Made by a program: the position numbers and the translations under genes
Notes under the pieces: generated by a model
What the model saw: the letters and a program-made list of their open reading frames with translations, nothing else
Databases searched by the model: none
Told to the model about the DNA's origin: nothing
Shown here: one piece after another, positions 3,285-14,583 of the stretch
Numbering within the stretch: position 1 is the first letter of the stretch
Layout: each line of letters begins with the position of its first letter
Source: Candidatus Bathyarchaeota archaeon
Lineage (GTDB): Archaea; Thermoproteota; Bathyarchaeia; Bathyarchaeales; Bathyarchaeaceae
Direction of reading: 5' to 3'
DNA: 42,348 bases
Assembly: GCA_029882515.1 (NCBI GenBank)
Contig: JAOUKN010000007.1
Location: forward strand, 1 to 42,348

Positions 3285-4514
3285 CTAAGCGTGTTGTCCC
3301 CATATTTGCAGTGCTGTTTCAAGTTCTCGGTGCTCTTTAGCATATTCGCGTAGAGACATGCCCCTTAAAGTCGCATCTACCGCTTGTCGCATAGCTCTTG
3401 CTCCTGCAACTGTTCCATCTCTGTGACCGTGAATCCCTCCCCCAGCTTGGATTACCAAATCTTCTCCGAAAAACTCGATTAACGCAGGAACTAATCCTGG
3501 ATGCAAACCGCCCGAGGCAACGGGCAAAACTCGTTTTAACCCGCTCATTTCTTCCTTCAGTGCTTCATAGTTCTCCGCGACTTCCTCTCTTGTTTCAAAC
3601 ATTTTTCCAACAACAGTGCCCACGTGAAGCTGATCCACACCTATTATTCTAGCTATTTTCGCTATTACCCGCATCGAAATTCCATGCTTAGGATTTTTGG
3701 TAAACGCTGCATGCCCAGCTCTATGGCCATGAATTATGAGGTTAAAATCTTGTTCACGTAGCGTCTGTAAAGCGGAAAAGCCACAGGTTATAACGTCAAC
3801 CATGACGTATTCTCCACCATGGTTAAGAACAAACTCAGCTCTACTCAGCATCTCCTCCGTCTCCGCTGTAATATTAGCCATGTAAACTCTTCTTTCACCA
3901 GTTTCTTCTTCAGCTCTGTCTCGACTCTCCAATGTCTTTATGACACGGTCTTCAAATGGATTAAACCTTTGATTGCTCAAGTTCTCATCGTCCTTCACTA
4001 TGTCACAACCTCCAACCCAAGCTTCATAGGCAACTTTTGCATGATCCAGAGTTGTCAACCCAAGTTTAGGCTTAATTATTGTTCCCACCAATGGCCGATC
4101 ATAAACTCTTAAAAGCTCGTGAATCCCCTCAACACCGTATTTTGGACCCCTGAAGCTTCTGATAAGATCCTGCGGAAAGTGGATGTCGTTAAGCCGTAAG
4201 TTCTTAAGAGTCTTTAATCCGAAGACATTTCCTGAAACACTACTCAATATGTTGGGCATGTTTCCTGGCTCGAAAAGTTCAATCGGATAAGCTATTCTCA
4301 CGTTATTTCTTTCTAAACTAAAGACGCGAGCGGCAAGTTTCTGAACATAGGACTTTACTGTTGTGAGTTCTGTCCACGTTCCTATCGAACTCTCCGCACA
4401 TACCCCGCCTGCAGCTTCCGCTATGCTGACACCTTCTGGTTCAACGTAAAACGTGCAAACAACATCTGTTTCTTTAGGTTTATAATTGAGGTCCACAAAA
4501 TCTACGTATCTCAA
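3285..4514 (-). CDS. rbcL: Ribulose-bisphosphate carboxylase, type III
   Basis: A 409-residue archaeal form III RuBisCO large subunit. It carboxylates ribulose-1,5-bisphosphate to two 3-phosphoglycerates in AMP salvage. The catalytic set looks intact: ESSIGTWTEL near the N terminus, GNVFG, IIKPKLGL, the carbamylated-lysine motif GGCDIVKDDE, HGHRAGH, HVGTVVGKMF, ASGGLHPG and QAGGGIHGH. Length is slightly below the roughly 420-440 residues usual for form III, mostly at the N terminus. The start is TTG at 4512-4514; an in-frame stop lies a few codons upstream, so no longer start is possible. Only a distant GAGAGG serves as ribosome-binding site. It diverges from the AMP phosphorylase gene across 95 nt containing a palindromic TATA-like element, suggesting joint control. 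No small-subunit or phosphoribulokinase gene is present. Confidence 0.96.
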   Translation of the reverse strand: MRYVDFVDLNYKPKETDVVCTFYVEPEGVSIAEAAGGVCAESSIGTWTELTTVKSYVQKLAARVFSLERNNVRIAYPIELFEPGNMPNILSSVSGNVFGLKTLKNLRLNDIHFPQDLIRSFRGPKYGVEGIHELLRVYDRPLVGTIIKPKLGLTTLDHAKVAYEAWVGGCDIVKDDENLSNQRFNPFEDRVIKTLESRDRAEEETGERRVYMANITAETEEMLSRAEFVLNHGGEYVMVDVITCGFSALQTLREQDFNLIIHGHRAGHAAFTKNPKHGISMRVIAKIARIIGVDQLHVGTVVGKMFETREEVAENYEALKEEMSGLKRVLPVASGGLHPGLVPALIEFFGEDLVIQAGGGIHGHRDGTVAGARAMRQAVDATLRGMSLREYAKEHRELETALQIWGQHA

Positions 4515-4554
4515 ACTGACCCAAGCCTCTCAATTTTGTTTATTGGATTGAGCT

Positions 4555-4571
4555 GCTTAAAGCCTTTAAGC
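4555..4571. promoter_or_regulatory. Palindromic bidirectional promoter element
   Basis: GCTTAAAG-C-CTTTAAGC is a perfect 8-bp inverted repeat around one central base (4563). Read on either strand it offers the same TTTAA TATA-like core. The centre lies 49 nt from the RuBisCO start codon and 47 nt from the AMP phosphorylase start, so each gene gets a TATA-to-start geometry of about 25 nt to transcription start plus a short leader. It could be one shared symmetric core promoter or an operator overlapping two promoters. The palindrome is seen; its function is inferred. Confidence 0.6.
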
Positions 4572-4609
4572 ATTGATTCACTTTACTTTTTGATTAAGAG
4601 TGAGTCTGA

Positions 4610-6154
4610 ATGAAGTTGCAAGCCAGACTTCTAGACATCCAAGCCGGTGGAAGAAGAATAGCCATATTAGACGACGAAACCGCGAGTCTTATCGGAGTAC
4701 ATTCATCCGACAGAGTGAAAATAACCCATAAAAATGAACATTTAATCGCTATCGTCAACATTGCTAGCAACTTTCCACGTAACTATGTGGGAGTCTACCA
4801 AGAGATCTCAACAAAGCTCGGAATGAAGAATGGAGAAACCATTGAAGTGCAACCTGCAGAAAGACCTGAGGCACTTAATTATGTTCAAGCCAAAATACGC
4901 GGTGAAACTTTACGAGAAAACGAAGTGAAAACGATAGTTGAGGAGGTTGTGGAACGTCACCTAAGCGACATTGAAATCGCGTCCTTTGTAACTGCGCTCT
5001 ATATTCATGGGTTAAGCATGGACGAAATTGAAGCTTTATCGAAAGCCATGGTGGAAACTGGTAGCACACTGACCCTTGATAAAACTCCAATTCTAGACAA
5101 GCACAGCATAGGTGGAGTACCCGGCGACAAGACAACACTTTTAATAGTACCAATTATCGCCGCAGCTGGTTTTATCATACCCAAAACCTCCTCCAGAGCA
5201 GTCACTTCTCCGGCAGGGACCGCGGACCGCGTTGAAACATTCTGTCCAGTGAACCTAACTATCGAAGAAATAAAAGAGGTAGTCCGGAAAACGAATGGTT
5301 GTATGGTTTGGGGCGGCGCCTTAGAGTTAGCTCCAGCAGATGACATTTTCATCCAAATTGAGTACCCACTGGCGATAGACCCATTGCTTCTTCCATCAAT
5401 TATGAGCAAGAAAAAAGCCATAAACGCCACACACGTAGTTATAGACATCCCAACCGGAAGAGGTGCAAAAGTAGAAACAATTGGCAGCGCAAATGCACTT
5501 GCACACGATTTCATAGAGTTAGGGAAGCGATTGGGAATAAGTGTCCAATGTGCAGTAACCTTTGGAGAACAACCTATCGGGTACGCTATAGGTCCAGCGT
5601 TAGAAGCAAGAGAAGCATTATCTACAATCATGGGAAACGGTCCAGCTGACCTTAAAGAAAAAGCAACAACCATCGCAGGCAAACTTTTTCAAATGATTGG
5701 CATCGAAAATGGAAAACAAAAGGCGGAAAGCCTCCTAAAATCAGGAAAAGCGGAAAGAAAGCTCAGACAAATAATCGAGGCACAGGGCGGAAACCCGAGT
5801 ATAAAACCTGAGGACATAAAACTTGGATCCAAAAAAGCGAAAATAACAACGGACAAAGACGGCAGAGTCTTATGGATCAACAACAGGAGCATTGTTCAAG
5901 TTGCCAGAGAAGCAGGCGCCCCCAAAGAAAAGGCAGCTGGAGTCATACTGAAAATAAAACTTGGAGAACACATTGAAAAGGGCGAGGTTCTATTTGAGAT
6001 TTACGCCGAAAGAAACACAAAATTGAACACAGCCTTAGAATTGGCAAAAAAACTTCAACCAATAGGGTTAAGCAAAAAACCAGAAGAAAGAATGCCAACG
6101 GATCACATCCCAACACGAACCAAGCAAAGAGAAGCCTTCACACTCGAGAGATAG
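4610..6154 (+). CDS. deoA: AMP phosphorylase (NMP phosphorylase)
   Basis: A 514-residue member of the thymidine/pyrimidine phosphorylase family in its long archaeal form, with an N-terminal extension of about 85 residues. Archaeal members phosphorolyse AMP, CMP and UMP to the base and ribose-1,5-bisphosphate, opening the pathway that ends in RuBisCO. The signature KHSIGGVPGDKTTLLIVPI-type stretch (about residues 163-182) and KTSSRAVTSPAGTADRVE (about 194-211) form the phosphate and substrate site. GGALELAPADD and the C-terminal barrel-sandwich part (ILKIKLGEHIEKGEVLFEI) follow. The start is ATG at 4610 with weak GAGTGAG upstream. Archaeal homologues of this type are about 500 residues, and RuBisCO and the isomerase next door argue against a plain thymidine phosphorylase. 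Confidence 0.94.
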   Translation: MKLQARLLDIQAGGRRIAILDDETASLIGVHSSDRVKITHKNEHLIAIVNIASNFPRNYVGVYQEISTKLGMKNGETIEVQPAERPEALNYVQAKIRGETLRENEVKTIVEEVVERHLSDIEIASFVTALYIHGLSMDEIEALSKAMVETGSTLTLDKTPILDKHSIGGVPGDKTTLLIVPIIAAAGFIIPKTSSRAVTSPAGTADRVETFCPVNLTIEEIKEVVRKTNGCMVWGGALELAPADDIFIQIEYPLAIDPLLLPSIMSKKKAINATHVVIDIPTGRGAKVETIGSANALAHDFIELGKRLGISVQCAVTFGEQPIGYAIGPALEAREALSTIMGNGPADLKEKATTIAGKLFQMIGIENGKQKAESLLKSGKAERKLRQIIEAQGGNPSIKPEDIKLGSKKAKITTDKDGRVLWINNRSIVQVAREAGAPKEKAAGVILKIKLGEHIEKGEVLFEIYAERNTKLNTALELAKKLQPIGLSKKPEERMPTDHIPTRTKQREAFTLER

Positions 6155-6537
6155 CCACGAAAAACCTGAAATCTTTCAGCTATCATTTTTCTTTCCTACG
6201 TTTTGCGCATGCGACGGCCTAAAACAGAAAAAAGGGGAAATTGCGGAGCACATCTTCACAGAGTACGAATAGATTCCTATCTGCTAAGTTTGGGACCGTT
6301 CCACAAAGTCTTCGCCATCAGAAAAATGTTCGGCAAATAGCAAACTTACTTGTTTACCGAACTTTGGGTTGCCTTCTCAAAGAGGGTTTCTCTCAATCAC
6401 AGAACATCTCGATCAATTAATTCAACGGATAAAGGAGGCAATTAGTATCTCTCTTTAAAAAGATAGATCAAGAAGGCAGAAGGCAATAGCAAAGTTAAAA
6501 AGACGATCTTACATTTTAGCCAAGCAGAGGGTCTGAA
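6155..6537 (+). pseudogene. Decayed coding remnant upstream of aIF5B
   Basis: No intact gene is seen. Broken forward frames hold protein-like stretches: ATG 6208 opens a 43-codon frame that ends at a TAG, and further on ITEHLDQLIQRIKEAIS, LFKKIDQEGRRQ and KAIAKLKRRSYILAKQR occur in successive frames separated by stops and frameshifts. The basic helical part from about 6400 to 6533 loosely recalls Snf7/ESCRT-III (CdvB-like) helices, but the similarity is by eye and weak. A TATA-like CTTTAAAAAG at about 6452-6461 is a promoter candidate for aIF5B. Confidence 0.3.
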
Positions 6538-8348
6538 TTGCCTGTTCGACAACCGATAGTCTGTGTGCTCGGGCATAACTCAGCTAAGTAGATACTTGCT
6601 GGGTGCCAGTCGACACCGGAAAGACTCTTCTGCTAGATCGGATCAGAAAAAGTAGTGTTCAAGCCCGTGAAGCTGGGGGCATAACTCAGCACATTGGTGC
6701 AAGTTTCTTTCCTGTTAAGACCCTTACCAAGATATGCGGGCCCCTCCTGAAGGGACTGAGAAAAAGGGTGCGAATTCCCGGATTGCTTGTCATTGATACG
6801 CCTGGCCACGAAGCTTTTGCCAACCTCAGGAAAAGAGGGGGTACAGTTGCGGACATCGCGATTCTTGTGATTGATATCCTAAAGGGATTTGAGGCTCAGA
6901 CATCTGAGTGTATTGACATCCTCAAGGCGAGGAAAACACCCTTTCTCGTGGCAGCAAACAAAATTGACCGCTTACCTGGGTGGAAATCTAAGCTTGGTGC
7001 ATCTTTTTCAGCCTCATACCAAGATCAAGATCCATATGTTCGCCAAGATTTAGACGAACGTTTATACGCGATTATAGGGACTTTTTCTAGACTTGATTTT
7101 CGGGCTGATCGATTTGAAAAGATATCTGACTTCACTCGAACCGTGGCCATTGTTCCGACAAGCGCCAAGACAGGTGAGGGCATACCAGAACTTTTAGTCG
7201 TCCTGATCGGCTTAGTTCAACAACATTTGCGTTCTCGCCTCCGCGTCACAAAGGGCCCCGCAAAGGGCACAGTGTTAGAAGTTAAGGAGGAACCCGGGCT
7301 TGGGATCACCATTAATGCCATCATTTATGATGGAGTCCTTCAAAAGGGCGACATTATCGTCGTGGGGGCCAAAGAAAAACCCATTGTGACCAACGTCCGC
7401 GCTGTCCTTTTGCCCAAGCCTCTAGACGAGATCAGGGACCCGCGCGACAAATTCTCTTCAGTGGACGCGGTTTCAGCCGCAGCTGGAATAAAAATCGCAG
7501 CGCCGAATCTTGAGGAAGCCTTAGCTGGTGCACCCTTATACGTGGTTCCTTCCGAAGCCGATCTTGAGAAGTACGCCAAGACTGTTTTGGAAGAAGTGGA
7601 GAAGATTAGAATTGCCACTGATTTGGAAGGTGTTGTGTTAAAAACGGATACGTTGGGTTCTCTCGAGGCAGTCAGTGAATGCTTAAGGTCAAACAATATT
7701 CCCATACGACTCGCAGATGTTGGCGATGTTTCCAAACGAGACATAACAGAAGCCGCAGTGGTTAAGGAACATGAACCCCTTTATGGAGCTGTTCTAGCCT
7801 TTAGTGTAAAGATGCTACAAGATGCAGAGGAAGAAGCGAAAAACAGAAAGATTCCTATCTTCCAGCACAACATCATTTACCATCTCATTGACAACTATAC
7901 AAAATGGATGAAAAGTGAACAGAATGCTCGTCTCCAGAAACAACTCAAGAACTTGGTTAGACCAGGCAAAATAAAAATTCTCTCTGGTTGCGTTTTTAGG
8001 AGAGCAAGACCCGCCATTATAGGGATCGAAGTTTTAGCTGGAGTGATAAAACCAAAATACTCCCTTTCTAAAGAAGATGGCGTAGATATTGGTGAGATCA
8101 AGCAGATTCAGGATAAGGGGCAATCAGTTTCTGAGGCGAAAACGGGAATGCAAGTGGCCATTTCGTTGGATAAACCGATTGTAGGACGACATATCTTTGA
8201 AGAAGATACGCTTTATGTGCGAGTACCCGAATCTCATGCTAAAATCCTATTAACGAAATTCCAAGATCAATTATCAACAGATGAACTGAACGTACTGAAC
8301 GAATTTGTTGAATTGATGAGGCGTAACTCACTTTTTTGGGCGGCTTGA
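6538..8348 (+). CDS. infB: Translation initiation factor aIF5B, gene interrupted by a 32-nt BHB intron
   Basis: Archaeal IF2/eIF5B, the ribosome-dependent GTPase that acts in subunit joining. Exon 1 (6538-6576) starts at TTG with GAGGG six nt upstream and encodes MPVRQPIVCVLGH. Exon 2 (6609-8348) continues VDTGKTLLLD in another frame. Joined, they give a 592-residue protein, the normal family length of about 600, with G1 GHVDTGKT (12-19), GGITQHIGA, G3 DTPGH (76-80), G4 NKID (130-133), then beta-barrel domains and C-terminal helices. Unspliced translation from 6538 would stop at TAG 6589-6591 after 17 codons. The internal GTG at 6603 would yield a protein lacking the P-loop's first glycine, so it is unlikely to be functional. 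Alternatives are a sequencing artefact or a pseudogene, but the rest of the frame is intact and the junctions fold as a splice motif. Confidence 0.9.
6577..6608 (+). other. Putative archaeal bulge-helix-bulge mRNA intron
   Basis: GGCA (6572-6575) pairs with TGCC (6604-6607) as the 4-bp central helix. The 5' bulge is TAA (6576-6578) and the 3' bulge is AGT (6608-6610), each exactly 3 nt. The inner helix pairs CTCAGC (6579-6584) with GCTGGG (6598-6603); after one bulged T, AAGT (6586-6589) pairs with ACTT (6594-6597) around the loop AGAT. The outer helix pairs GCT read back from 6571 (6569-6571) with CGA (6611-6613), then GTG (6565-6567) with CAC (6614-6616) past one bulged C. Cutting both bulges at the same position removes 32 nt: after bulge base 1 it gives GGG CAT GTC GAC (GHVD), after base 2 GGG CAT ATC GAC (GHID). 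This is the substrate shape of the archaeal tRNA-splicing endonuclease. Confidence 0.85.
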
Positions 8349-14390: not shown

Positions 14391-14583
14391 CGAGCGTATT
14401 CCCAATTGCAAGAAGTATACGGGATCCTCTGAGTATTGGGCACGATTATGAACGAACACAATTCTCGTATTTTCGTCCTGAACCTAAACCTGCAATTCTT
14501 CCAATACTATGCGTGATTTCACAACAAAACACTGGTAGAGAGAAAAACTACATTAATAAGAAGGTGGTATTTCAAAGTTAACA

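Follow-up and report, generated by a model that had tools for sequence, protein, structure and literature searches.

A predicted bulge-helix-bulge intron in the P-loop of the aIF5B gene of Bathyarchaeia

The gene for the universal initiation factor aIF5B is interrupted within its P-loop by a short insert that is very probably an archaeal bulge-helix-bulge (BHB) intron, i.e. an intron of ordinary mechanism in an unusual place, spliced by EndA and RtcB. The insert is present at the identical nucleotide in 10 of 257 genomes from the class Bathyarchaeia; the ten belong to two orders and four families. From its structure, its conservation, and the reading frames on both sides, we infer cleavage and ligation of the transcript, and the messenger would almost certainly be translatable only once the insert has been cut out and the ends joined.

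The interrupted gene and its bulge-helix-bulge structure

The window, i.e. the whole stretch of 42,348 nt that was analyzed, is a 42-kb contig of a Bathyarchaeia MAG (G000; 230 contigs, 88% complete), and the aIF5B gene spans positions 6538-8348 of its plus strand. Exon 1 (6538-6577) starts with TTG and encodes MPVRQPIVCVLGH plus the first base of a split Ile codon (A|TC); its peptide is conserved in the ten intron-bearing genes and in intronless relatives. Unspliced reading from the TTG at 6538 gives ...GHNSAK and ends after 17 codons at a TAG (6589-6591), which lies within the 32-nt insert (ACTCAGCTAAGTAGATACTTGCTGGGTGCCAG, 6578-6609). The continuation, VDTGKTLLLD, starts with GTC at 6609-6611 in a different frame that is open until 8348 and has its first in-frame start codon, a GTG, at 6603. 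Deletion of 6578-6609 joins the two frames and restores the motif GHIDTGKT in a protein of 592 aa; the predicted peptide across the exon junction is QPIVCVLGHIDTGK, and exon 2 (6610-8348) contributes TCGACACCGG... up to a TGA stop. The spliced protein matches the aIF-2 model TIGR00491 (also NF003078) with 819.8 bits over residues 3-591, the cut-off being 554.75, and has all expected domains. A gene caller would be expected to report a truncated ORF of 581 aa (6603-8348, plus strand) that starts inside the intron and has an incomplete P-loop.

Only one full-length aIF5B gene was found in G000; as the MAG is 88% complete, a second, uninterrupted copy is still conceivable there (the other carriers are 92-97% complete). 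The region upstream of the TTG that is kept in intron-bearing relatives (6491-6531, plus strand) contains, by sequence, a TATA-like AAAGTTAAAA and a purine-rich, SD-like GAGGG. Further upstream (3285-6154), a gene for a RuBisCO large chain, on the minus strand, lies back to back with one that resembles pyrimidine nucleoside phosphorylase genes and presumably encodes an AMP phosphorylase. The arrangement resembles that of the archaeal AMP pathway.

The borders of the insert form a BHB with the layout TCG-GGCA-[TAA]-CTCAGC ... GCTGGG-TGCC-[AGT]-CGA. Its 4-bp central helix pairs the exonic GGCA (6572-6575), which is invariant in all ten carriers and holds a Gly wobble base, with the intronic TGCC (6604-6607). 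The exon-intron boundaries lie in two 3-nt bulges on opposite strands, UAA (6576-6578; UGA in the other order) and AGU (6608-6610). The inner stem-loop (6579-6603) consists of 6 bp (CTCAGC/GCTGGG), a bulged T at 6585, an extra stem of 4 bp (AAGT/ACTT), and the tetraloop AGAT. In the outer stem, GTG-C-TCG (6565-6571) pairs with CGACAC (6611-6616), which adds a further 3 bp (GTG/CAC) to those beside the bulge. Canonical cuts past the second nucleotide of both bulges (UA|A and AG|U) excise exactly 6578-6609. The original prediction of a 32-nt BHB intron in the aIF5B P-loop, with a stop codon in the exon 1 frame, a continuation in another frame, a full 592-residue product, and a gene-caller start at GTG 6603 that loses the P-loop, agrees with these results in every detail. 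The prediction had left the cut ambiguous between GHV and GHI; the canonical cut gives GHI in the window's family, matching the intronless relatives, and GHV in the other order.

The intron is the sole strict BHB motif on both strands of the window. For comparison, strict motifs occurred twice in twelve single-strand dinucleotide shuffles and once in ~184 kb of related-locus strand. The RNAfold value for the whole segment against shuffles (z -0.34) is uninformative; the case for the intron is built on its architecture and the conservation thereof, not on overall stability. Group I and group II introns were rejected, the insert being 31-32 nt long and the catalytic cores of these classes needing hundreds of bases. 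The insert was likewise not classed with the pre-mRNA introns of the cbf5 type, which are defined by their gene and site, as the host gene is aIF5B; the mechanism class is shared, the gene is not.

G000 encodes both a splicing endonuclease and an RNA ligase. Its one EndA gene (contig C151, 7839-8339) has the N- and C-terminal domains (PF01974, 1.2e-27, with PF02778), and its one RtcB was identified with an E-value of 9e-177. The closest solved chains to this EndA are the tRNA-splicing endonucleases 2cv8, 3p1z, and 3ajv, which we take to be alpha subunits of crenarchaeal splicing endonucleases; G000 yielded no sign of a second, beta subunit. The tRNA-Arg(TCT) gene of this genome (L083) has a canonical BHB intron of 15 nt at the expected site, and several long tRNA genes contain short introns (L083, L097, and L098). 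According to the known biochemistry, cleavage by EndA would leave a 2',3'-cyclic phosphate, after which RtcB would join the exons. In the proposed route, the pre-mRNA would pair the wobble-constrained GGCA of exon 1 with the UGCC at the 3′ end of the intron, EndA would cut past the second base of each bulge, and RtcB would ligate the exons to an mRNA that codes for an intact aIF5B with GHIDTGKT. An unspliced mRNA would yield merely a 17-aa peptide that ends at the stop codon in the intron.

Conservation in ten genomes and the alternatives to splicing

Carriers were identified with a covariance model that was built on the first five examples and run over 257 whole genomes of the class, together with protein searches; a sequence-pattern search of the order had overlooked G001 owing to an exon substitution. 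Four carriers belong to the window's family, i.e. G000, G001, G002 (aIF5B locus JAOUPL010000092.1), and G011 (BA2; LIHK01000029.1), one is from another family of the same order (G033), and five are members of a second order (G229, G239, G240, G241, and G242). In the protein searches of the two orders, the matches of the carriers begin at residues 13-14 and those of the other listed homologues at residues 1-3, apart from a few partial matches (e.g. G138, residues 1-82, and G234, which begins at 61). No carrier outside the class was detected in a phylum sample of 398 genomes with strict filters and 13 candidates scored per genome; this absence is weak evidence, because the search was shallow and the filters were strict.

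Compensatory changes uphold the structure. Across the 20 base pairs and ten sequences, 96% of the cells are paired, 22 two-sided changes are distributed over eight pairs, and the covariation value is 0.331. None of 500 column shuffles matched these values, and slid partners resulted in 29-43% pairing. In the inner stem, 7 of the 10 pairs show a two-sided change in one genome or more; in the second order its sequence is wholly different (e.g. UCCGGA/UCCGGA), with the bulged base and the loop size unchanged. The same gap and compensatory stem changes, which the original prediction had proposed to look for in related Bathyarchaeia, are thus present. Next to the 3′ bulge, the outer stem is imperfect in G001 and G033, and splicing in these two genomes would therefore require an enzyme able to act on relaxed motifs. 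Only a single EndA gene, with no second subunit detected, is seen in G000, yet these two carriers have slightly relaxed BHB motifs.

Two carriers, G002 and G033, have an insert of 31 nt and the remaining eight one of 32 nt, and the product is GH[IV]D[TA]GKT in all. The bulge cuts restore GHIDTGKT or GHVDTGKT in all ten genes (GHIDAGKT in G001). A fixed frameshift is therefore ruled out, since inserts of both lengths restore the same motif. Carriers of the first order have A as the second base of the 5′ bulge and those of the second order have G, and the canonical cut accordingly predicts Ile (ATC) in the former and Val (GTC) in the latter. In agreement with this cut, all intronless genes examined have Ile in the window's family and Val in the second order. 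G239 has the 3′ bulge AUU and a genomic TTC (Phe) after the gap, and splicing would yield GTC (Val), as in its relatives. In the exon, the codons contributing to the central helix and to the first base of the bulge read GGG CAT in 10 of 10 carriers versus 3 of 66 intronless genes (Fisher p 3e-10, relatedness ignored). The exon wobble bases thus appear to be selected for pairing with the intron, which is a signature of a process at the RNA level.

These observations bear on three other explanations. A hairpin and a change of frame close to the 5′ end could also point to programmed frameshifting or stop readthrough, in which the ribosome would switch frames on the unspliced RNA, and the cbf5 introns of crenarchaea were formerly taken for frameshifts (PMC2738675). 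However, the 31- and 32-nt inserts would demand different shifts for one product, the residues translated from the insert would land within the P-loop, and frameshifting has no need of a covarying BHB; we regard this explanation as exceedingly improbable. Ribosome bypassing of the T4 gene 60 type, a hop across the 31-32 nt, would fit the variable length, the hairpin, and the stop codon right after the take-off region. It would, however, place Phe in the P-loop of G239 upon landing before the genomic TTC, and Val in the window's family, in which the intronless relatives have Ile. In addition, matched take-off and landing codons are absent, and the invariant 4-bp helix with its two 3-nt bulges is a substrate for EndA. 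Bypassing is thus very improbable as well, albeit slightly less so than frameshifting.

The gene is broken as read and stems from a MAG, as would be expected for a decaying gene or an assembly error. The latter had been named beforehand as an outcome that would overturn the prediction, and it does not withstand the recurrence of the same insert in ten genomes with abundant compensatory changes. Likewise, the spliced protein is conserved over its full length (82% identity of exon 2 to G002 and BA2), no further full-length aIF5B was found in G000, and the structure is under selection. The probability of decay or misassembly is accordingly close to nil, and splicing by EndA and RtcB is by far the preferred explanation.

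Probable descent and loss of the intron

To describe the history of the intron, a protein tree of 69 aIF5B genes was used, from which the junction residue was excluded. The carriers are nested in their own families, and a tree that forces all of them into a single clade is rejected (p 5.8e-55), so the intron did not move with a whole replaced gene. At least seven changes of the intron state are required on this tree, and about ten losses would be needed had the intron been present in the common ancestor of both orders. The intronless G004 (Kmv02) is the closest relative of the carrier G002. The upstream regions of several intronless relatives cannot be aligned with those of carriers, and for G004 this suggests replacement of the gene or of a segment. 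G006 retains the upstream region, and its intron is gone; introns may therefore have disappeared either through replacement of the gene or through precise loss. The intron was probably present in the ancestor of at least two orders of Bathyarchaeia and then cleanly lost many times.

Horizontal spread or repeated gain of the same intron at one site, instead of inheritance and loss, appears unlikely to us, though it is by no means negligible. The patchy distribution, with the numbers of changes and losses given above, would be compatible with it, and the site is a P-loop at which the Thermococcales-type aIF5B model has a long insertion too. Whole-gene transfer fails on the position of the carriers in the tree; local gene conversion would be compatible with that result. 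The divergence of the stem sequences between the orders, in contrast, fits long separate descent, and vertical inheritance followed by losses is the more probable course.

The start codon is TTG in nine of the ten intron-bearing genes (including 6538-6540 in the window) and mostly ATG in the intronless genes. An association of TTG starts with the intron was rejected, as it fails on independent pairs (median p 0.375).

Related intervening sequences and implications

The rarity of BHB introns in archaeal protein genes, with cbf5 as the well-known case, had been noted in the original prediction. According to a 2020 study of Haloferax, cbf5 was the only further archaeal mRNA reported to contain such an intron, and that study added one in a 5′-UTR (PMC7714728). 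These two are the experimentally confirmed cases of archaeal mRNA BHB splicing in the papers searched. No paper that mentions IF5B together with bulge-helix-bulge was found in the searched literature, which comprised few subscription journals and preprints; the earlier remark that no described aIF5B intron was known for this lineage is in line with this result. The aIF5B intron is thus a putative new instance of an established class, with unusually strong comparative support.

Like the cbf5 intron of Desulfurococcales and Sulfolobales (Watanabe 2002; Yokobori 2009, PMC2738675), the aIF5B intron has a BHB in an essential protein gene, would depend on EndA, is short (16-44 bp in cbf5, 31-32 nt in aIF5B), splits a codon of a catalytic motif, and shows lineage-specific loss. 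It differs in that the codon belongs to the P-loop of a GTPase, the host class is Bathyarchaeia, and splicing is predicted from sequence. The BHB intron of HVO_1309 of Haloferax volcanii (PMC7714728) is also an mRNA intron processed by EndA, but it resides in the untranslated 5′ leader, whereas the aIF5B intron interrupts the reading frame itself. Archaeal tRNA introns at position 37/38 have the identical BHB geometry and cut positions, and differ in RNA type. The Thermococcales aIF5B model (NF011418/PRK14845, 1049 positions) has an intervening sequence in the same P-loop, and its alignment to the spliced protein begins at residue 19, at model position 475. From what is known of IF2 inteins, we take this insertion to be an intein; in contrast to the intron, it would be removed by protein splicing, and it lies about five residues further on. 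The P-loop (residues 14-19; 6577-6628 in the window) has apparently been invaded by two unrelated intervening sequences, a BHB intron and an intein.

In BA2, about 1.43 Mb was searched for BHB motifs that join reading frames when excised. The scan recovered the aIF5B intron and two further matches with homology support, in hypD and cbf5. The hypD intron (L260, 12229-12261, plus strand) is 33 nt long, contains an in-frame stop codon, has an outer stem of 6 bp and an inner stem of 10 bp, and obtained the top stem score of the scan; it lies between the Gly and Thr of CGTHE (MHVCG|THEW), and the predicted spliced product matches TIGR00075 with 467.5 bits. In the window's genome, hypD is uninterrupted. 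The cbf5 intron (L213, about 14533-14550, minus strand) has 18 nt and splits a conserved Asp codon (GGTL|DPKVTG). The cbf5 introns of crenarchaea interrupt the catalytic codon (PMC2738675), and this match is therefore apparently the known site again. BA2 cbf5 additionally carries an intein. Candidates that join ORFs and do not have homology support (e.g. L267, L210, L216, and L192) were rejected as chance matches; loose BHB motifs by themselves are frequent in a genome (1889). A similar scan of ~345 kb of G242 revealed nothing convincing.

With the hypD and cbf5 candidates in one genome, the number of archaeal mRNA introns appears to be underestimated. A more far-reaching idea would be that Bathyarchaeia possess a small set of ancient protein-gene BHB introns at catalytic motifs (splitting the aIF5B P-loop codon and the Cbf5 catalytic Asp codon, and lying within CGTHE of HypD), and that splicing is a control point, with the activity of EndA and RtcB setting the level of aIF5B and thereby of translation initiation, an effect to which weak TTG starts and the stop codons in the introns would contribute; we consider this improbable. 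It is plausible that splicing gates translation initiation, as originally proposed, and a regulatory role is speculation. For genome annotation, the intron shows that automated gene prediction cuts essential genes short in these genomes, and it makes the gain and loss of introns amenable to study, for instance in the close pair of carrier and non-carrier, G002 and G004. As the gene concerned encodes a universal initiation factor and its BHB intron is conserved, with covariation, in two orders of an uncultured class, mRNA splicing would here reach the core of translation.
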